NCBI RefSeq assembly: GCF_019038465.1
Contig: NZ_JAFKRH010000031.1
Coordinates: 310,001 to 374,000, forward strand
DNA: 64,000 nt
Direction of reading: 5' to 3'
Origin: Synechococcus sp. CCY 0621
GTDB taxonomy: Bacteria > Cyanobacteriota > Cyanobacteriia > PCC-6307 > Cyanobiaceae
Made by a program: the position numbers and the translations under genes. Below are positions 50,978 to 61,404 of this stretch, piece by piece; the stretch's first letter is position 1, and each line of letters begins with the position of its first letter. The notes beneath the pieces were generated by a model, which saw only the letters and a program-made list of their open reading frames with translations, was not told the origin of the DNA and ran no database searches.

Positions 50978-53900
50978 TCACAATCCAGGAACCGCCCCCC
51001 CGTCGCCCGTGAGCTGCCAGGCGGCCCAGAACTTGTGGTCGGCCCAGTCCGGCTCTGGCGGATTGCTGCGGAACTCCTGCTGCACCGTCGCTAGCGCGTC
51101 CATTCGACCGATCCCCTTCTTGAGCAGGGCGACGTACCGCTGCATGAACGCCGCCGTGGCGTCATCATCCACTTTCCACAGGGACAGCAGGGTGGAGCGG
51201 GCGCCGGCCACGGTGAGGGCCCGCTGCAGGCCATAGACCCCTTCGCCCGTCTGCAGGCTGCCGGAGGCGGTGTCGCAGGCGGAGAGCACCACCAGCTCGG
51301 TGCCATCAAGCTGCAGCTGGGCCGCCTCCTTGGCGGTGAGATAGCCGTCATCGTCGGCCGTGCGGTTGCGGTTGGCGCCCGCCAGCACGATGCCGCTGTT
51401 CAGCAGCGGGTCGCCGCTGCCCGTGGTGAAGAACCCGTGGCTGGCGATGTGCAACACCCTGGGGCCGCGCGCCTGCTGCAACACGCCGGTGGTGGCGGCG
51501 GATCCCTGATAGAGCGCCGCCCCGAGCCGTTCGGCAATCCAGCTCCCCTCAGAGGCCGTGGCGGGCAAGGGCTGCCACTTGCCTGGGCCACCGAAATCAG
51601 GATCGGCGAGTACAAGGGAACGCTGGCCGCCTGGTCCGGGGCTGGGCAGGCTGAGCAGATCACGGCCGCTGGTGAGGATCCGCAGCTGCACGCGCTGGCC
51701 CAGGGTGGCCGATGAATCGGCTTCAACTCCGCTCAAGCTGTCAGCGGGAGCAGGCAGCGCCGTGAACGGGATGCGGCTCAGCTCACCATCGGGTGAAACA
51801 AACCAACGCCGCCGCCCCACCAGCTGCGGCAGCAGGGGCCCCAGCACCTTCTGGCTCACCCGGGCCCAGAACGGTCCAGCGGGGCGGTTGCGGGCCAGGC
51901 TTTCGGCCAGGGCCTGCTGGATCAGGGGATCGGTGGCCGCCGCCGGGCCGAGGTCCACCGCACGGGTCGCCCCATCGGGGAACAGCAGCATCGCCAGATA
52001 GCGCGCTTCTCCCCAGCTCCTGGCCTCCGGTTGACGGGCGTCGTAGGGGCGAAAGCGCTGGAATTCGATCAACACCCCATCAGGCGGCAGGGCAGCGGCC
52101 ACCTGGGCGGTGTCCACCAGTCGCGGGGTCAGGGCCGGTAGCTGGCGGTAGAGCTCCTGCTCCAGCCGATCACGCTCCTGCTGCAGGCTCTGCCGCTGCG
52201 GCTCGCTGAGGTTCACATCGGCCAGCCGGCCTGTCATGGCCGTTATCTGGCTCACAAGCTTCTGCTGGCCAGGGGAGCCGCGGCCAAGCTGGGCCTGGCG
52301 CCGTTCAATGTCCTGCAGCAGGCCATGGCGGTTCAAGCGCGTGAACAGGGCCAGTGGGGCGCCGGCCGGAGCTCTGGCCACAAGGGAAAAGGGGATTTCC
52401 CAGACACTGCCGAGGGCCTTGATCTGTTGCAGTCGCCGCGCCTGGGGCAGCAGGGGAGCCTCCCGTTGCAGAAACAGGGACTGGCTGCCGATTCCACGGC
52501 GCAACAGCGGCTCCGCCTTGGCGTCGGCCCCCTGGCTCAAGTGCAACTTGGCGAGGTTGCTGAGGCTGGTGGCCGTCGTGGGGTGATCACGCCCCAGCAC
52601 GTTCTCGTAGATCGCCAGGGAGCGGAGAAACAGGGGCTCAGCCTTGGCATCGGCGCCCTGAAGACGATAAAGATCCGCAAGATTATTGAGGCTACCGGCG
52701 GTATCGGGATGATCAGGACCCAGCACCTTCTCCCGGATCGCCAGAGCGCGAAGGTGGAGCGGCTCGGCTTTGTTGGAGAAGCCCTGATTGTCGTACAGCA
52801 CCGCGAGGTTGCTGAGGTTGGTGGCCGTGGTGGGGTGATCGGGCCCCAGAGCCTTCTCATGGATGGCAAGGGCACGACGCAGCAGGGGCTCGGCCTTGGC
52901 GTAGGTGCCCGGATCGTCGTAGATCATGGCGAGGTTATTGAGGCTGGTGGCTGTATCGGCGTGGTCGGAGCCGAGCGCCTTCTCTTTGATCGCCAGGGCG
53001 CGACGTAGCAGGGGTTCCGCCTTGGCGTAGGCGCCCTGGCTCCGGTACAGCGCGGCGAGGTTACTCAGGCTGGTGGCGGTTGAATGATGCTCGGGTCCCA
53101 CCGTCATCTCATTGATCGCCAGGGCGCGGAGGTAGAGGGGTTCGGCCCTAGAAAAGGCGCCCTGGATTTCATACAAGAAAGCAAGATTGTTAAGGCTGGC
53201 CGCGGTATCGGGATGATTGGCTCCCATTTCCTTCTCGCTGATCGCCAGGCTGCGCCGAAACAGGGGCTCAGCTTTGGGATAGGCACCCTGGGCGATGTAC
53301 AGCTTCGCAAGGTAGTTGAGACTGACGGCCGTTTGGCGGTGATCGGGGCCCAATGCCTTCTCACTGATCGCCAGGGCGCGGAGATAGAGGGGCTCAGCCT
53401 TGGCGTAGGCGCCCTGCCTCTCATACAGAGCCCCAAGGCTGTTCAGGCCAAGGCCGATACCATCATGGTTAGGCCCGAGCACCTTTTCGGCGATCACCAG
53501 GGCGCGTAGATAGAGAGGCTCGGCCTTGGCGTAGGCGCCTTGGTTGGAATACAGCTGAGCAAGATTGTGGAGGCTCAGGGCGGTCAACGGGTGATCAGGT
53601 CCCAGCACCTTGTTCCTGATCGCCAAGGAGCGGATTAGGAGGGGCTGGGCTTTGGCGTAGGCGCCCTGGTTGCTGTGCAGCCGCGAGAGGATGTCGAGGC
53701 TGGCGGCCATGTCGAGGTGATCGGGACCTTGCACCTTTTCGCGCCAGGCCAGAATCTTTTCCCACAGCGCCGCCGCCTGCCCATAGAGCCCCTTGGCCTC
53801 CAGGGTGTTGGCCTGGTCGATCCAGTCCCACACCTGCTCCGGGATCTGGGTGTAGCGCTCGCCCAACGGCTGGGCGATCCAGTCCTGCTGCCGTGGCCGT

Positions 53901-54016
53901 GGTGACTGGCCTTGGTGATCGACGGCCGCCGACGGCTGTCCATCGGCCAGCAGGAGCATGGCGAGGGCGGTTCCCCAACGGAACAGGGCCACCAAGGAAC
54001 GAGCGGACCGCGTCAT
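50978..54016 (-). CDS. Exported TPR-CHAT (caspase-like) protease
   Basis: Protein of 1012 residues. The start (ATG 54016) has a basic segment and a hydrophobic stretch (LVALFRWGTALAMLLLADG) ending SAA, a probable signal peptide. Ten full repeats of 42 residues of the TPR type follow, each with a core like AKAEPLYLRALAIxEK-xLGPDH; they occupy roughly residues 70-500. A coiled linker leads to the C-terminal CHAT domain with the catalytic dyad: His about 860 in VLHIASHGFFTT and Cys about 914 in LVVLSACDTASG. CHAT proteases are caspase relatives; the TPRs usually bind a partner that triggers them. The signal peptide suggests action outside the cytoplasm. The frame stays open upstream to 54172, but only across the divergent SDR gene. 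Confidence 0.9.
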   Translation of the reverse strand: MTRSARSLVALFRWGTALAMLLLADGQPSAAVDHQGQSPRPRQQDWIAQPLGERYTQIPEQVWDWIDQANTLEAKGLYGQAAALWEKILAWREKVQGPDHLDMAASLDILSRLHSNQGAYAKAQPLLIRSLAIRNKVLGPDHPLTALSLHNLAQLYSNQGAYAKAEPLYLRALVIAEKVLGPNHDGIGLGLNSLGALYERQGAYAKAEPLYLRALAISEKALGPDHRQTAVSLNYLAKLYIAQGAYPKAEPLFRRSLAISEKEMGANHPDTAASLNNLAFLYEIQGAFSRAEPLYLRALAINEMTVGPEHHSTATSLSNLAALYRSQGAYAKAEPLLRRALAIKEKALGSDHADTATSLNNLAMIYDDPGTYAKAEPLLRRALAIHEKALGPDHPTTATNLSNLAVLYDNQGFSNKAEPLHLRALAIREKVLGPDHPDTAGSLNNLADLYRLQGADAKAEPLFLRSLAIYENVLGRDHPTTATSLSNLAKLHLSQGADAKAEPLLRRGIGSQSLFLQREAPLLPQARRLQQIKALGSVWEIPFSLVARAPAGAPLALFTRLNRHGLLQDIERRQAQLGRGSPGQQKLVSQITAMTGRLADVNLSEPQRQSLQQERDRLEQELYRQLPALTPRLVDTAQVAAALPPDGVLIEFQRFRPYDARQPEARSWGEARYLAMLLFPDGATRAVDLGPAAATDPLIQQALAESLARNRPAGPFWARVSQKVLGPLLPQLVGRRRWFVSPDGELSRIPFTALPAPADSLSGVEADSSATLGQRVQLRILTSGRDLLSLPSPGPGGQRSLVLADPDFGGPGKWQPLPATASEGSWIAERLGAALYQGSAATTGVLQQARGPRVLHIASHGFFTTGSGDPLLNSGIVLAGANRNRTADDDGYLTAKEAAQLQLDGTELVVLSACDTASGSLQTGEGVYGLQRALTVAGARSTLLSLWKVDDDATAAFMQRYVALLKKGIGRMDALATVQQEFRSNPPEPDWADHKFWAAWQLTGDGGAVPGL
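52530..53790 (-). repeat. Tandem 126-base repeats coding for ten TPR units
   Basis: Ten in-frame copies of a 126-base unit in the TPR-CHAT gene, diverged in sequence but with strongly conserved blocks such as the codons for AKAEPL and LGPDHP. Recent duplication is likely between some neighbours. Such units can expand or contract by recombination, so repeat number may vary among strains. Confidence 0.85.
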
Positions 54017-54095
54017 GGGCGTACGGGGGGTTCCCAGCTTCCGGTACGGGATCCAGCATGGTCTGGACATCGACAAACCCTGCTGGAACGGGTCC

Positions 54096-54812
54096 ATGAA
54101 ACTGATGGTGGTCGGGGCCAGCCGCGGGCTTGGCCGTGCCTTTGTCGAGGGTCTGGGCAGTGCCGGCGACACGGTGATCGGCGTCTCGCGGCGACGGCCC
54201 GATGGCCTGAGGCTGCCGGCGGACGTCGAGCTCGCCTGGATCGAGGCGGATCTGGCGGAGCCGTTGCCGGCGGTGCGGTGGATCGAGCAGCAGGCCCCCG
54301 CCCAGCTGGATGTGCTGATCTACAACCTCGGCGTCTGGGAAGCGAACGCCTTCAGCGAGGCCTACAGCTTCCTGGAAGATCCCGACGACAGCATCGCCAC
54401 CATGGTGGCCATCAACATCACCGGTGCCCTGATGCTGCTCCGGCGGCTGATTCCGCGGCTGCTCGACTCCCCCAGGCCCCAGCTGATCCTCACGGGCTCC
54501 ACCTCCGGCCTGCGCCAGAGCGGGCAGCCGGAGGTGACCTTCGGCGCCTCAAAGTTCGCCTTCACCGGCATCGCCGATGCCCTGCGGGAGAGCTTCCGGG
54601 ACCAGCGGCTGGCGGTGACCTGTCTGCAGCTGGGCTACCTGAACACCGACGACGGCCTGGAGGTGCCGTCCGAGGCGGCCGCCGGGCGCGGTGAGGGCCG
54701 GCAGATTCCGCTCCACGACGTGATCCGGATCGTCTCGGCCCTGCTGCAGCTGTCCCCGGCCTCCTTTGTTCGCGAGCTGGTGCTGCCCGCCATCGGCGAC
54801 GAGCGGTTCTGA
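54096..54812 (+). CDS. Short-chain dehydrogenase/reductase with altered active site
   Basis: Protein of 238 residues with a Rossmann fold. The nucleotide motif is MVVGASRGLGRAF and the later NLGVWEANAF. The catalytic Ser is kept in LTGSTSGL. In the usual Y-x-x-x-K motif the Tyr is replaced by Phe149, with Lys153 kept (VTFGASKFAF). The enzyme may lack normal redox activity or use another acid. The ATG at 54096 was chosen because it begins the Rossmann strand; the frame upstream belongs to the divergent TPR-CHAT control region. It heads a plus-strand run with the phosphatase. Confidence 0.85.
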   Translation: MKLMVVGASRGLGRAFVEGLGSAGDTVIGVSRRRPDGLRLPADVELAWIEADLAEPLPAVRWIEQQAPAQLDVLIYNLGVWEANAFSEAYSFLEDPDDSIATMVAINITGALMLLRRLIPRLLDSPRPQLILTGSTSGLRQSGQPEVTFGASKFAFTGIADALRESFRDQRLAVTCLQLGYLNTDDGLEVPSEAAAGRGEGRQIPLHDVIRIVSALLQLSPASFVRELVLPAIGDERF

Positions 54813-54862: not shown

Positions 54863-55624
54863 ATGAACACCCTGCGCCCGGGACATTGGCTGTCCAGCCT
54901 CCTGCTGCTGCAGACCGCCCTGCTGCCGGGTTCGCTGGCGCTGGGGGGGCCGGCGTCCGCCCAGCCGGCGGACCCGGCGGCGGGCCTGGTGCTCCAGCCG
55001 GCCGCCTACCGCGCCGTGATCGGCCAGCCACCAGCCCCCGGCAGCCGCCTGGCACTCGATGATCTGGCGATCCTGCGCTGGAACCAGCGCACCCGCACGC
55101 CGGCGGGAATCGTGCACAGCTGGCGCTTCCTGAACCGCCATCTCAGCGTCTTCGATGCCGCCGTGGGCGCCGACCTGGCGCGGACCGCCCCCCTCCTCTA
55201 CGCGGGCCTGCCGGCCTTTCTGGAGCGGGCCGATGGGCTGAAGGATCAGATCAAGGATGGGGTGGCCCGTCCCCGCCCCTTCCTGAGCCACCCGGATCTG
55301 AAGCCCTGCCTGCCCCTGGAGGGCTCCTGGTCATTCCCCAGCGGCCACGCCACCTGGTTTGGCACCGCATCCCTGCTGCTGGCCGACCTGCTGCCGGAGC
55401 GCCGGGAGCGGCTGCTGCCGGTGGGTCTTCAGGGGGGATACGTGCGCGCCTACTGCGCCCTGCACTACCCCAGTGATGTCCTGGCCAGCCAGCGCCTCGC
55501 CCAGGCGGTCAGTCAGGAGGTGATCGCCTCCCCCCAGTGGCGGCGCTTCAAGCAGCAGGTGGCCGGTGAGCGCCTCCTGCTGCTCACGGTCCCACCGGCC
55601 GGCCTGCCCCTGCTGGCGGATTGA
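54863..55624 (+). CDS. PAP2-type class A acid phosphatase
   Basis: Exported phosphatase of 253 residues. A signal peptide ([18 protein letters not shown]...ASAQ) precedes the domain. The three PAP2 motifs are in order: K-x6-RP in [18 protein letters not shown] in [12 protein letters not shown], and R-x5-H-x3-D in [16 protein letters not shown]. These match non-specific acid phosphatases of class A, which release phosphate from organic esters outside the cytoplasm. It lies 50 bases after the SDR gene and its stop overlaps the next gene's start as TTGA. Phosphate-starvation control would be expected but no PHO box was confirmed. Confidence 0.9.
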
Positions 55625-56847
55625 TCGCGTTCCACGCCACGGTTCGCGGCGCCCGGCGCAACGGACTGGGCCTGCTGCTCACCCCGCTGGTGCTGCTCCG
55701 CCGCGTCGTGCAGGGGTTGGCCCTGGCCCTCGAGCGCATGATCTGGCGGGAGCTGATCGAGGACGAGGCCCCCGCCAACCCGCTCGTCAGCCTGCTGGCC
55801 TTCCTGCTGTTCTCCGGCCTCTGCCTGCTGGCCAGCCTCCAGGGGGCCGTGGCCTATGTGATCGCCCTGCTGCTGTTCCTGCTGCCGATGGAGTGGCTGA
55901 TGGCCAGCTTCGGCTACGCCGCGCCGGTGCAGCGACGGGTGCTGCTGCAGAGCTGGGGCCAGCGGATCCGCCTGTTCGCGGACACGGCCGGGGGAAGCGA
56001 GCGGCTGGAGTTGGACCGGGCCGCCATCACGGCCGTACGGATCCGCCGGGCCAACCTGGAGCTGCCGCCGCTGGGGGAGCGGCCCCTCGGCTGGGATCTG
56101 TGTCTGGCCATGGCCGATCCCGCCGCGGAGCACCTGCTGGCCCGCGCCACAAGCTTGTCCGGCGCCTGGCAGCAGGCCCACGCCCTGGCCGCCGACCTGG
56201 GGGTTCCCCTGCACCTGGCCGGCGCCCTCAACGCCCGGCAGCTCGCCGCAGCCCGGCCGGGCGGGCCGCAGCCGGACGATGTCTGGAGGCTGGAAACGGG
56301 GTCTTCCGCCACACGCCTGGTCCGCAGCCGCCGCGGCGTGGGCGCGGCGCAGTGGTGGCGCTCCTTTGCCCAGCAGGGCAGCTACCTGCTGTTCGTCGCC
56401 GTGCTCAACACCGTGATGGTGAAGTACGGCGGCTTTCTGGTCTGGATGTTCGGGCCGCGCCTGGGCCTGAGCGAATCCACCACCCTGGTGCTGGATCTCT
56501 CCCTGCCGGGCCTGCTGTCACTGGCCCTGCCGGAGTGGACCGTGATCCAGACCCTGCTGGTGGTCGCCGCCCTTGGCGCGGCAGGCATCGGCAGCTACCG
56601 GCAGTGGAGCCCGCAGGAGCTCTGCCTGACGGACGACCAGCTCAGCCTCCGCCGCCCTGGCCAGCCCAGCCGCAGCCTGCCGCTGCGGCTGATCACCGGG
56701 GCGCTGCTGCTGCCGGGTCCGCCCCCCCGGGTGATCCTCTGGAGCGAGCGCCGGCCCCCGATCGTGGTGGACGGCCTCTCCGGCGAGCGGGAGGCCGCCG
56801 AGCTGCTGGAGAAGCTGGAGTCCGTCCTGGGTCCGCCGCAGGGATGA
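55621..56847 (+). CDS. Multi-segment membrane protein, unknown
   Basis: Protein of 408 residues starting at a TTG that overlaps the phosphatase stop (TTGA). Hydrophobic pairs are seen near residues 18-33, 56-90 and 255-330, with soluble domains between and after them. The soluble part after the first membrane pair is beta-rich with many charged residues; the last 80 residues have [20 protein letters not shown], suggesting a PH-like fold. No family was recognised. Its stop overlaps the start of the beta-lactamase. Both overlaps suggest a coupled phosphatase-membrane protein-lactamase set. Confidence 0.75.
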
Positions 56848-57719
56848 TGAACCCGATGGAACCCCTCAACACCCTGGCCCTGGCCGCAGCCCTGGTAGCG
56901 GCGGCGCCCGCCACGGCGGAAACCGGCCTGGCGGCCCTGGAAGCCCGCTCGGGCGGCCGGCTGGGGGTGTTCGCCATCGACACCGCCAGCGGCACCCGCA
57001 TCGGGCATCGGGCCGACGAACGCTTTCCCGTCTGCAGCACCTTCAAGGCGATCCTGGCGGCGGCCGTACTCCACAGGAGCCAGCGGGAGCCCGGCTTCCT
57101 GGAGCAGCGGATCCGCTTCGGCCGCCAGGATCTGGTGACCTACTCGCCGATCGCCGAGCAGCACCTCGAGGACGGCCTGACAGTGGCGGAGATGGCCGCC
57201 GCCACCGTCCAATACAGCGACAACACCGCCGCCAACCAGCTGATGGCACGCCTGGGCGGCCCCGCGGGCCTGACCGCCTTCGCCCGCTCCATCGGCAACC
57301 GGACCTTCCGGCTCGATCGCTGGGAAACCGACCTCAACTCCGCCATCCCCGGCGATCCCCGCGACACCGACACCCCCGCCGGCATGGGCAGCAGCCTCCA
57401 GGCCCTGGTGCTCGGCACCGCCCTGGGCTCGCCCCAGCGCCGTCGACTGCAGGACTGGCTGATCGGCAACACCACCGGCGACCGGAGGGTGCGGGCCGGG
57501 GTGCCGACGGGCTGGCGTGTGGGCGACAAGACGGGCAGTTGCGGCGTGTACGGCACCGCCAACGACGTGGCCGTGGTCTGGCCGCCGGACCGTGCGCCGA
57601 TCGTGCTGGCGATCTTCCATACCCAGGCCGATCCGGCCGCCCAGGCGCAGGAGGGGGTGATCGCCGCAGCCGCCACGATCGTGGTTGAGGCGTTCACGCA
57701 TTCGCAGACCCCGCACTGA
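56844..57719 (+). CDS. Class A beta-lactamase with carbapenemase-type signature residues
   Basis: Serine beta-lactamase of 291 residues with a signal peptide ending APATA. In the chain, Cys64-Ser65-x-x-Lys68 (CSTFK), Ser125-Asp126-Asn127 (YSDN), Glu161-x-x-Leu-Asn165 (WETDLN) and Lys229-Thr-Gly-Ser-Cys233 (KTGSC) are complete. Adding 5 gives standard Ambler numbers: Ser70, Lys73, Ser130, Glu166, Asn170 and Lys234. Cys69 and Cys238 form the disulfide typical of class A carbapenemases (KPC, SME, NMC-A); Arg220 and Ser237 also match that group. Whether it hydrolyses carbapenems is an inference. It is a chromosomal gene overlapping its upstream neighbour (ATGATGA), with no mobile element near. 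Confidence 0.92.
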
Positions 57720-58180
57720 AACCCAGGCATGGGTCAGGCTCTGGACGCGAAATGTTTGTTGCTGCAATGGACCTCAGCGATGTCGGCATGCGGAACCAAG
57801 CCAGAACAGGGGCATTGATCAGATCTTCTGACCAGTCGTCGCAAGATCCTTCGAATCCATTTGAGAGCTTGTGATCTGAGCCATCGAACCTATTGGATCT
57901 TCGAAAAGATGACCCAACACACTGCTAGTAATCCGCTCCATCGTGATAGGATTAATTGACTGGAACAATCCAGCTTGCACGATGGTCGTCCTCAGGACTT
58001 CCAGGCTCAGGAAACAGCTCTTCCTTGCCTTGATCACGTGCTCTGCCCCTTCCTTTACGAATTCGTCTTTCGTTTCGCTTGAGCATTTCGCCTGTCGTCG
58101 TGAGCAGGCCAACGGCCCTTAAGGCCATTGCGAAAGGGGTGTCGGTCGTTCCGGTTGTCATATCGCAAGAGAATCCATCC
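57720..58180. other. AT-rich stretch between the lactamase and coiled-coil gene
   Basis: About 460 bases that are visibly less GC-rich than the flanks. A minus-strand frame at 57819-58112 is open for 97 codons (MACSRRQAKCSSETKDEFVK) but has no recognisable product and no good ribosome binding site. I see no RNA gene. It may hold a promoter for the coiled-coil gene or the remains of a lost gene. Confidence 0.5.
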
Positions 58181-58525
58181 ATGACCACCCAACAACCCAC
58201 CATCAACCACTCTTCCCAGGAGATGGCCAACGTCGACGAACGCCTGCGCCAGGCCATTCTCGACAAGCGGCAGTCCCAGATGAAGGAACTGTCGGACAAG
58301 ATCGATCAGCTGCAACACCAGGCCAAACAGCTGACAGAAAGCATTCGCGACGAATCCGAGAGCAAGCTCGAGGAGCTCAGGGCCGCCCGCGATGCGGCCA
58401 GCTCACAGTTGCAGGAGCTGCAACACAGCACCCAGGACGCATGGTCCAACGTGCTTGAGCAGACCGACGAGGCGTTGCAGTCCGTGTCCGATCGCTTCCA
58501 CGCCTACGTCAAGAGCCAGAGCTGA
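58181..58525 (+). CDS. Coiled-coil protein, 114 residues
   Basis: Hydrophilic protein with a long heptad-repeat region: VDERLRQAILDKRQSQMKEL, IDQLQHQAKQLTESI and ASSQLQELQHSTQDAW. There is no signal peptide or membrane segment. It is likely a dimeric or multimeric coiled coil of unknown role, with some resemblance in style to phasin-like or stress-related proteins. The ATG at 58181 was preferred over frames open upstream since it follows CATCC and begins a typical Thr/Gln-rich tail. It is 74 bases before the PfkB-like gene. Confidence 0.75.
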   Translation: MTTQQPTINHSSQEMANVDERLRQAILDKRQSQMKELSDKIDQLQHQAKQLTESIRDESESKLEELRAARDAASSQLQELQHSTQDAWSNVLEQTDEALQSVSDRFHAYVKSQS

Positions 58526-58599
58526 TTGCGGATGTCGCTCGTTCTCTCCAACTTGCCATCCGATCTCCGAATTTCGCCCACCCACTCCACGTCTTGCCT

Positions 58600-59673
58600 A
58601 TGTCCAACATCACAACCACCAAACCCATCACCATCCATCCCCTGAGCCTGGAATCCCACGACCAACCCCGTGTGCTCTGCTTCGGCGAAGCCCTGATCCA
58701 TCGCATCAACAGGCCCGATACCGAGAACAAAGCGAACACACTGGATCGTCCGGGAGGCTCCGCGGCCAGCGTGGCCTGCGGGGTCACCCGCCTGGGTACC
58801 CCGGCCAGCTTCCTGGGCCGGATCGGCGACGATCCGCTCGGCCGGCAACTGCTGGAGCTGTTCGAACGACGACAGGTGAGCACGCCGGCGCTGCAGACGG
58901 ATCCGAAACGTCCAACACGGGTAGCCCGGCTGCAATGGAAGCCAGGTGGGGAGCTTTGCCTCGACGACTTCCTGGGCGACAGGGGCCAGGGCTTCGCCGA
59001 CAGCGCTGTGGTTCCCGCCACACTGGCTGAATCGGTGAAGCCCCTGCTCCGGGAAGCCCGCTGGCTGCTCATCAGCACCAATGCCCTCGTCAGCGGCCCG
59101 AGCGCCATGGCACTGGATCTGCTGCTCAAGCGGGCCACGGCCCAGGGACTTGGCATCGCCCTGGACATCGATTGGTGCCCCGGTTTCTGGGGCCTTGCTC
59201 CGGATGCGGCCCCATCGGCCGAAGTGCTGCGCCGTTTCCGGCCCCTCGGCGAGAAGGCCACCCTGATCCTGGCGTCCGCCGGGGAGGCCAAGGCCTTCTT
59301 CAGCAGCGCCGATCCCGCAACCATTCATGGCGCGCTGGCCAAGCGCCCGGCCGTTCTGGTGACGGGGTGCAAGGGAACCGTGCGCTGGTGCCTGGGCGGT
59401 CGCCAAGGCACCCTGTCGCCCGCCGAGGAGCATGTTCCCAGCCATCCTCTGGGCGTCCGTCAAGCCTTCACGGCAGCCCTGCTGGATGGCCTCTGCCGCC
59501 GGCCTGAGCTGCTCGAAGCTCCGGCACCGGGCGGTGCTGGCGTCGCCGGACCTGGTCCGATCGAAGACCTGCTTCGCTTTGCCTCGGCCTGCGCCACCCT
59601 CGTGGGCCGCACCGAAGGGGCTATCGAGCCCCAGCCCAGGCGAGAGGCCGTGAAGGCGTTCCTCAAGGCCTGA
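58600..59673 (+). CDS. PfkB-fold sugar-kinase relative lacking the catalytic Asp
   Basis: Protein of 357 residues. The N-terminal GGSAASVACGVTRLGTPASF and GRIGDDPLGRQLLELF match the PfkB/ribokinase family, and the FTAALLDGL region is present near the end. The family motif D-T-x-G-A-G-D, which supplies the catalytic base, should precede this. Here (about residues 280-290) it reads HPLGVRQAF with no acidic residue. It may be inactive, or use another site. The ATG at 58600 was chosen over an in-frame TTG six bases before. It ends with a strong terminator. Confidence 0.8.
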   Translation: MSNITTTKPITIHPLSLESHDQPRVLCFGEALIHRINRPDTENKANTLDRPGGSAASVACGVTRLGTPASFLGRIGDDPLGRQLLELFERRQVSTPALQTDPKRPTRVARLQWKPGGELCLDDFLGDRGQGFADSAVVPATLAESVKPLLREARWLLISTNALVSGPSAMALDLLLKRATAQGLGIALDIDWCPGFWGLAPDAAPSAEVLRRFRPLGEKATLILASAGEAKAFFSSADPATIHGALAKRPAVLVTGCKGTVRWCLGGRQGTLSPAEEHVPSHPLGVRQAFTAALLDGLCRRPELLEAPAPGGAGVAGPGPIEDLLRFASACATLVGRTEGAIEPQPRREAVKAFLKA

Positions 59674-59717
59674 TCTCCAACCTCCCTCAAGGCGCTTCGC
59701 AACGCGCTTTGTCCCCG

Positions 59718-59745
59718 GCCCCCTGGCTACGCCGGGGGCTTTGTT
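59718..59745 (+). terminator. Intrinsic terminator after the PfkB-like gene
   Basis: GCCCCC-T-GGC pairs with GCCGGGGGC around TAC, with one bulged T, followed by TTTGTT. It lies 45 bases after the stop and also faces the end of proB, but the T-run favours the plus strand. Confidence 0.8.
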
Positions 59746-59755
59746 GCGGGAAGCC

Positions 59756-60895
59756 TCAGGCCGGCAGGCAGGTGAGCACCAGCTGATCACGGTGCACCAC
59801 CGCATCGCCCACCGGCCCCAGCTGGCGGCGCACCTCCTCGCTGCTGAGGCCCATGATGCGGCGCAGCTCCTCGCTGCTGAGGGTGCTCAGGCCCCGCCCC
59901 AGTTCGCGACCATCGCTGGCCAGCACCCGCACCGCATCGCGCCGGGAGAAGTGACCCTCCACCGCCCGGATGCCCACCGCCAGCAGGGAGGCCCCCTGCT
60001 GCAGCAGGGCCCGCTCGGCGCCCGCATCCACCCGCACGCTGCCCTTCACCAGCAGGGCATGGGCGAGCCAGCTCTTGCGATCGGCCAGGGGCGTGGTGCT
60101 CGGCTGGAACACCGTGCCCACCTTCTCGCCGGCGAACAGGGCGTCGAGCACCGCCGGATCGCGGCCATCGGCCAGCCGCACCCGGATGCCGCTGGAGGTG
60201 GCAATGCGGGCCGCCGCCAGCTTGGTGGTCATGCCGCCGGTGCCCCACTGGCCGCCCCCTTCGGCCACGTGGCTGAGGCGCTCCAGTTCGGCCAGGTCCC
60301 GCACCTCTTCGATCGGGCTGGCGTCGGCATCGGTGCGGGGGTTGCCGGAATAGAGCCGATCCACATCCGTGAGCAGCACCAGTTCATCGGCGCCGATCGC
60401 CACCGCCACCAGGGCCGAGAGGGTGTCGTTGTCGCCGAAACGCAGTTCATCGGTGGCCAGGGTGTCGTTCTCGTTCACCACCGGCAGCACGCCCCACTCC
60501 AGCAGCTGCTCCAGGGTGCGGCAGGCGTTCTGATAGCGGCGCCGGGAGGCCAGATCGCTGCGGGTGAGCAGCACCTGGGCCACTGCCAGCCCCCGCACGG
60601 CGAAGGCGTCCTGGTAGAGGGCCATCAGCCGGCCCTGGCCCACGGCGGCGGCGGCCTGAAGGGCCACCACTTCGGTGGGGCGCTTGCTGAAGCGCAGGGC
60701 CTCGCAGCCCAGCCCCACCGCCCCACTGGTCACCAGCGCCAGGCGATCCCCCTGGCGCTGCTGCCGGCTGAAGCTGGCCGCCAGGTCGGCGATCACCGCC
60801 GCCGTGGGCCGCTCGGGGCTGCCCCTCAGCAGGCTGGTACCCACCTTGATCACGCGCCGCAATCCGCCGGCGGCGGGTGTGCCGGAGGTCGCCAT
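59756..60895 (-). CDS. proB: Glutamate 5-kinase
   Basis: First enzyme of proline synthesis from glutamate, 379 residues. The kinase domain has VIKVGTSLLRG, LVTSGAVGLGCEALR, PVVNENDTLATDELRFGDND, and VDRLYSGNPRTD. The C-terminal PUA domain is about residues 285-379. The ATG at 60895 shares a base with the stop of the YqeG-type gene (TGATG), so the start is well supported. Feedback by proline is the family norm. It is the last gene in the GNAT-ruvX-DUF3727-YqeG-proB run on the minus strand. Confidence 0.95.
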   Translation of the reverse strand: MATSGTPAAGGLRRVIKVGTSLLRGSPERPTAAVIADLAASFSRQQRQGDRLALVTSGAVGLGCEALRFSKRPTEVVALQAAAAVGQGRLMALYQDAFAVRGLAVAQVLLTRSDLASRRRYQNACRTLEQLLEWGVLPVVNENDTLATDELRFGDNDTLSALVAVAIGADELVLLTDVDRLYSGNPRTDADASPIEEVRDLAELERLSHVAEGGGQWGTGGMTTKLAAARIATSSGIRVRLADGRDPAVLDALFAGEKVGTVFQPSTTPLADRKSWLAHALLVKGSVRVDAGAERALLQQGASLLAVGIRAVEGHFSRRDAVRVLASDGRELGRGLSTLSSEELRRIMGLSSEEVRRQLGPVGDAVVHRDQLVLTCLPA

Positions 60896-61404
60896 CAGCC
60901 CGGAACCGAGCCCACCCAGCGGGCCATGCGCAGCTCCAGGTTCTGCAGCCGATCCTGGCGGCAAGGCTCGCCGTCAGGATCGATCGGCTTGACCAGCACG
61001 GTGAACAGGCCCATGCGGTTGCCCACCAGCACATCGGTGAACAGCCGATCCCCCACCAGGGCCACCTGGGCGGGGGGCAGATCGAGATCCAGCAGCACCT
61101 TGCGCAGGGCGGCCCGGCGCGGCTTGCCCGCCGAGGTGGTGTAGGGAAGTCCCATGGTGTCGGCCACCGCCCCGATGCGGCGGCGGGAGGGATTGTTGCT
61201 GAGCAGATGCAGGGGCATCCGCTCGCGGGCGTGGCGCAGCCACAGCTCAGCCTGGACAGGCATGGTGGCCTGGCGGCGGGGCAGCAGGGTGCGGTCCACG
61301 TCGAGGACGAGGGCGCGAATGCCACGCTCGACCAACTCCTGCAGCGGCAGGTGGGCCAGGGACGTCCCCGGCAGCCAGTCAGGCGTGAGCAGATCGCGCA
61401 GCAT
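60895..61404 (-). CDS. YqeG-family HAD IIIA phosphatase
   Basis: HAD-superfamily protein of 169 residues. Motif 1 is ALVLDVDRTLLPR, motif 2 is LHLLSNNPSRR, Lys lies in GKPRRAAL, and motif 4 is VALVGDRLFTDVLVGNRMG. YqeG proteins include the phosphatidylglycerophosphate phosphatase Pgp1/GEP4 types; in cyanobacteria and plastids a related PGP phosphatase completes phosphatidylglycerol synthesis. That role is possible but not shown here. Stops and starts are tied: its ATG overlaps the DUF3727 stop and its stop overlaps the proB start (both TGATG). Confidence 0.9.
   Translation of the reverse strand: MLRDLLTPDWLPGTSLAHLPLQELVERGIRALVLDVDRTLLPRRQATMPVQAELWLRHARERMPLHLLSNNPSRRRIGAVADTMGLPYTTSAGKPRRAALRKVLLDLDLPPAQVALVGDRLFTDVLVGNRMGLFTVLVKPIDPDGEPCRQDRLQNLELRMARWVGSVPG

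Follow-up and report, generated by a model that had tools for sequence, protein, structure and literature searches.

Does a picocyanobacterial chromosome hold a natural relative of the clinical class A carbapenemases, and how would such a gene have arrived there? The question is raised by an open reading frame (56844-57719, + strand; hereafter bla) in the window, by which we mean the whole 64-kb stretch of Synechococcus sp. CCY 0621 DNA analysed here. A first-pass annotation had read it as a chromosomal class A beta-lactamase gene with KPC/SME-type residues, and possibly as an ancient environmental relative of that group. Our analysis leaves us with strong confidence that its product is a secreted, working class A serine beta-lactamase, derived by transfer from the proteobacterial PEN/CTX-M/KPC cluster and then inherited with repeated loss. 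The kinship to KPC itself and the activity on carbapenems are a different matter and call for a more graded answer.

The gene and its predicted product

The reading frame is intact and encodes 291 amino acids, with an export signal-like N-terminal helix (residues 6-36 in the AlphaFold model) and a mature domain from about residue 26; the n-region of the signal peptide carries no Lys or Arg in the window copy. The match to PF13354 (1.9e-42; 145.5 bits against a cut-off of 22) is far beyond chance, and the NCBIfam class A model NF033103 is also passed (338.6 bits against 200). In an alignment numbered on TEM-1, in which Cys238 falls in an inserted column, the product has C69, S70, K73, S130, D131, N132, R164, E166, N170, D179, T216, R220 and K234-T-G-S237-C238-G (Ambler numbering), and the class A motif set (S70-x-x-K73, S130-D-N132, E166 and K234-T/S-G) is complete. 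On the DNA these motifs lie, all on the + strand, at 57033..57047 for Cys69-Ser70-Thr-Phe-Lys73 (TGC AGC ACC TTC AAG; protein residues 64-68), at 57216..57224 for Ser130-Asp131-Asn132 (residues 125-127), at 57324..57338 for Glu166 to Asn170 of the omega loop (residues 161-165), which is whole (RWETDLN), and at 57528..57545 for Lys234-Thr-Gly-Ser237-Cys238-Gly (residues 229-234). The first-pass description of a complete active site, together with the Cys69-Cys238 pair, Arg220 and Ser237, is thus borne out in full.

The AlphaFold model (pLDDT 91.3) superposes on the crystal structures of KPC-2 and PenA with TMt 0.97-0.98 and rmsd 0.8-0.9 A. The mature chain contains exactly two cysteines, at Ambler positions 69 and 238, which are most likely bonded to each other as in the active site of class A carbapenemases. 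The enzyme would be exported and act in the periplasm, where Ser70, activated through Lys73 and Glu166 with Ser130 and Lys234, would be acylated by the beta-lactam, and a water molecule placed by Glu166 and Asn170 would then free the hydrolysed drug. Its role would be to shield periplasmic peptidoglycan synthesis from beta-lactams; other freshwater cyanobacteria that have been tested are very sensitive to these compounds (PMC4531292). The product very likely hydrolyses penicillins and cephalosporins.

One alternative is that bla encodes PBP-A, a DD-peptidase relative of class A enzymes, as this is the typical class A-like protein of cyanobacteria (PMC11189452) and is weakly matched in most genomes of the genus. 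While both proteins have a class A-like fold, PBP-A has no omega-loop glutamate (PMC11189452); a separate PBP-A-like paralogue in the same genome lacks Glu166, and the bla product, which has it, is 60-65% identical to KPC and PenA but only about 35% identical, over partial length, to that paralogue. The presence of Glu166 rules this identity out by sequence, and we leave it a very slight probability. The paralogue itself (L002, G000:C42:20745-20930) is class A-like and probably a cyanobacterial PBP-A. Contamination of the assembly by proteobacterial DNA could be suggested by the proteobacterial nature of the nearest relatives outside the clade, but it is negligibly probable given that the gene is embedded in 64 kb of cyanobacterial sequence on a long contig, occupies the same site in six separately assembled genomes and has a GC content (72%) equal to that of its neighbours. 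A pseudogene and a plasmid or transposon origin were likewise rejected on sequence, site and context.

Likeness to PEN and KPC enzymes

Among named enzymes the product is closest to PEN/PenA (PDB 3w4q/7doo; about 65% identity over 253 positions to PenA of Burkholderia multivorans), followed by KPC-2 (60%), CTX-M-14 (57%), SME-1 (51%), and TEM-1 and GES-1 (both 37%). PenA, which is chromosomal in Burkholderia, shares the catalytic residues, Cys69, Arg220 and a near-identical fold with our model, but reads KTGTGDYG, without Cys238, where the bla product has KTGSCGVYG, one residue more. KPC-2, on the other hand, has the Cys69-Cys238 pair, the KTG(S/T)CGVYGTAND motif and Arg220 in common with the product, as well as its fold (TMt 0.98); it differs in overall sequence, in Trp105 and His274 (Tyr and Ala in the bla product) and in the transposon context that is absent around bla. 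SME-1 and NMC-A share the KTGSCG motif including Ser237, along with Cys69 and Arg220, but are only 50-51% identical and have His105 and His274, neither of which is found in the bla product. GES also has both cysteines but falls in another tree cluster, with its Cys at 238 arising without an inserted residue. PEN-Bcc is the top-scoring NCBIfam model (393.1, below its cut-off of 540), and the PenA model (382.2 against 640), the class A carbapenemase model NF000538 (353.3 against 390, with KPC-2 as control scoring 455.3) and the KPC model (347 against 625) all remain below their cut-offs.

How much, then, do the residues say about carbapenemases? In our alignment most of the proteobacterial relatives, and many of the actinobacterial ones, also have Cys69, Arg220, Thr216 and Ser/Thr237, so these residues do not single out carbapenemases. 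Cys69, Arg220 and Ser/Thr237 are common to many that have no Cys238, so the label "KPC/SME-type" rests on one inserted residue. By this alignment the Cys238 insertion, one residue beyond what PEN and CTX-M have, is the only discriminating feature among the residues noted, and among the 112 aligned homologues its combination with C69 is confined to the cyanobacterial clade, KPC, SME and NMC-A. The first-pass label therefore holds for the insertion and loses its force for the other residues, the more so as PenA is the closest enzyme and the carbapenemase cut-off is missed.

In the maximum-likelihood tree the seven cyanobacterial rows form one clade (support 99/97), placed inside a 25-row group (100/98) with PEN, CTX-M, KPC/SME/NMC-A and environmental proteobacterial enzymes; this grouping, from which CRH, CRP, SFC, BIC and LUT sequences were left out, is consistent with the carbapenemase/ESBL cluster described in the literature (PMC5324141). 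The tree places the product in the proteobacterial PEN/CTX-M/KPC cluster and neither establishes nor excludes KPC/SME/NMC-A as its sister group. Of the kinship proposed at first pass, the shared broad cluster stands, and as to the closer tie the AU tests reject neither placement: forcing the cyanobacterial rows together with KPC/SME/NMC-A gives p 0.32, or p 0.155 once motif columns and long rows are removed, and holding them with PEN gives p 0.44.

These results allow two readings of the inserted cysteine. It may have been gained once, in a common ancestor, in which case the product would be a true carbapenemase and the cyanobacterial clade an environmental branch sister to KPC/SME/NMC-A. The confinement of the insertion to these enzymes argues for this, as does the survival of the joint clade in both AU tests, and according to a review the disulfide is present in all class A carbapenemases but SHV-38, with a C69A change in SME-1 abolishing the imipenem resistance it confers (PMC4463611). 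Nonetheless, in the best trees the cyanobacterial clade groups with PEN/CTX-M-type rows rather than KPC, a joint clade is 3.9-9.2 log units worse, identity to PenA exceeds that to KPC or SME, the carbapenemase cut-off is missed and the His274 of KPC/SME/NMC-A is Ala in the product; we consider this first reading possible but less likely than not. Alternatively, the cysteine arose independently on a PEN-like penicillinase/cephalosporinase whose carbapenem hydrolysis would be weak at most. The tree prefers PEN/CTX-M neighbours even without the motif columns, GES provides a case of a separately arisen Cys238, and the carbapenemases PAD-1 and BKC-1 lack Cys238 (PMC5566211), so that residue and activity are not strictly tied. 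It would, however, be a coincidence for a one-residue insertion to produce the same SCG/TCG motif twice, and the tree does not settle the position relative to KPC; we rate this second reading slightly short of an even chance. Carbapenem hydrolysis by the product, at whatever rate, is plausible, and we regard it as evenly balanced. The fuller proposition, that a picocyanobacterial lineage holds a natural sister group of KPC/SME/NMC-A with the inserted Cys238 in common and with real carbapenemase activity, at one chromosomal site and with no mobile element, appears unlikely to us.

A variable site between PAP2 and proB

In the window bla follows two other genes on the + strand: one for a PAP2-family periplasmic/acid phosphatase (54863..55624; PF01569, 3.8e-12), the first of an overlapping set, and one for a membrane protein with five hydrophobic segments (55621..56847) that has no match in Pfam, NCBIfam or the plasmid collection. 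The phosphatase gene overlaps the membrane protein gene by 4 bp, and the latter overlaps bla by 4 bp in an ATGA stop/start, which confirms the coupled set described at first pass; bla would close a translationally coupled trio. An obligatory three-component system is nevertheless rejected: the phosphatase, the membrane protein and bla each occur without the others in some genomes, so the coupling is positional. Downstream, a 2-kb block with a PfkB-type kinase (57720..59755), of lower GC3 (0.77), separates bla from proB, a convergently oriented gene for glutamate 5-kinase that anchors the site (59756..60964, - strand; AA_kinase and PUA domains). This block is present in the window, G013, G062 and partly G028, and absent from the other bla-positive genomes. 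No transposase family was detected among the scanned ORFs (about 43-64 kb of the window), and neither tRNA genes in the 64 kb nor repeats bracketing bla were found, in agreement with the first-pass view of a chromosome-type gene free of mobile elements; promoter and terminator scans likewise returned nothing. Upstream of the set, a gene at 50978-54172 (- strand) encodes about ten TPR repeats followed by a caspase-like CHAT domain, and its start overlaps an SDR gene on the opposite strand.

The distribution of bla is narrow. At E <= 1e-20 it is found in 6 of 42 genomes of the genus and 7 of 400 of the family, the seventh (G139) belonging to another genus and carrying the gene at another site, and in a sample of 386 genomes across the phylum (E <= 1e-30) only the window's own genome matches. 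Relatives known by name are Aphanothece saxicola, two Cyanobium strains and Synechococcus sp. BO 8801. The enzyme of G139 (L102) is about 66-67% identical, has the Cys238 insertion and is sister to the others in the tree (99/97), but its gene lies beside a predicted amidohydrolase ORF with no PAP2 or membrane protein gene nearby. The gene is thus a patchy acquisition of one genus and one related genome, and the suggestion that it is ancient, in the sense of old in cyanobacteria, fails.

Within the genus, bla is flanked by the membrane protein gene and proB in all six positive genomes and shows the identical ATGA overlap, while close relatives document its absence in several forms. In G003 and G023 the site is empty and the membrane gene leads directly into proB; G062 retains only the last ~80 bases (3' end) of bla; in G004, which is sister to the window genome, no more than a scrap of the membrane gene is left; and in G025, G012, G060 and G009 the slot is filled by another gene, histidine phosphatase-like by motif. 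The PAP2-proB slot (54863-59756) appears as a small variable site whose contents alternate between close sister genomes: some have the membrane protein with bla or the membrane protein by itself, others a gene resembling a histidine phosphatase, and yet others scraps or no gene at all. The membrane gene of G026 is degraded whereas its bla is whole, which indicates that bla is kept for itself. With dN/dS of 0.15-0.34 across the six genomes, bla is under purifying selection, and together with the intact copy in G026 this argues that it is retained for its own enzymatic function.

On a gene tree of RNase II/R (RNB), genomes with bla are interspersed with others across a 14-genome clade, which requires at least five changes, and the bla tree groups them as the species tree does. 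Given the shared site and start/stop overlap, the empty or swapped sites in close relatives and the bla scrap, one gain by transfer before the 14-genome clade followed by several losses is the simplest reading. The ancestor of a Cyanobium-like subclade would have received the gene horizontally, at the PAP2-proB site, from the proteobacterial PEN/CTX-M/KPC cluster and passed it on vertically; part of the pattern could be mimicked if strains swapped the slot through homologous recombination at PAP2-proB. As no proteobacterial row exceeds about 66% identity, the donor is narrowed only to that cluster, and the plasmid collection yielded only KPC, CTX-M and PEN types, all below 68% identity. Another homologue from our searches, in the insect symbiont Candidatus Fukatsuia symbiotica (L024), has stop codons in the matched stretch and looks to be decaying.

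Implications for class A enzymes

Eleven cases of resistance gene transfer between Proteobacteria and Cyanobacteria are on record (PMC12188727), and a search of the open literature, partial in coverage, turned up no description of such a class A enzyme in Cyanobium. The locus adds a clear case in which a class A gene passed from proteobacteria to cyanobacteria and both empty sites and remnants can still be seen. Should the enzyme hydrolyse carbapenems, a KPC-like active site would exist naturally, and independently of drug use, in a photosynthetic lineage of fresh water; the Cys238 insertion would then point either to common ancestry with the clinical carbapenemases or to the same solution having arisen a second time. 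If it does not, the residues used for sequence-based calls of environmental carbapenemases would be weak predictors. And if the cyanobacterial clade is sister to KPC/SME/NMC-A and has true carbapenemase activity, the KPC-type active site would go back much further, and be far more widely spread, than the clinical record shows.
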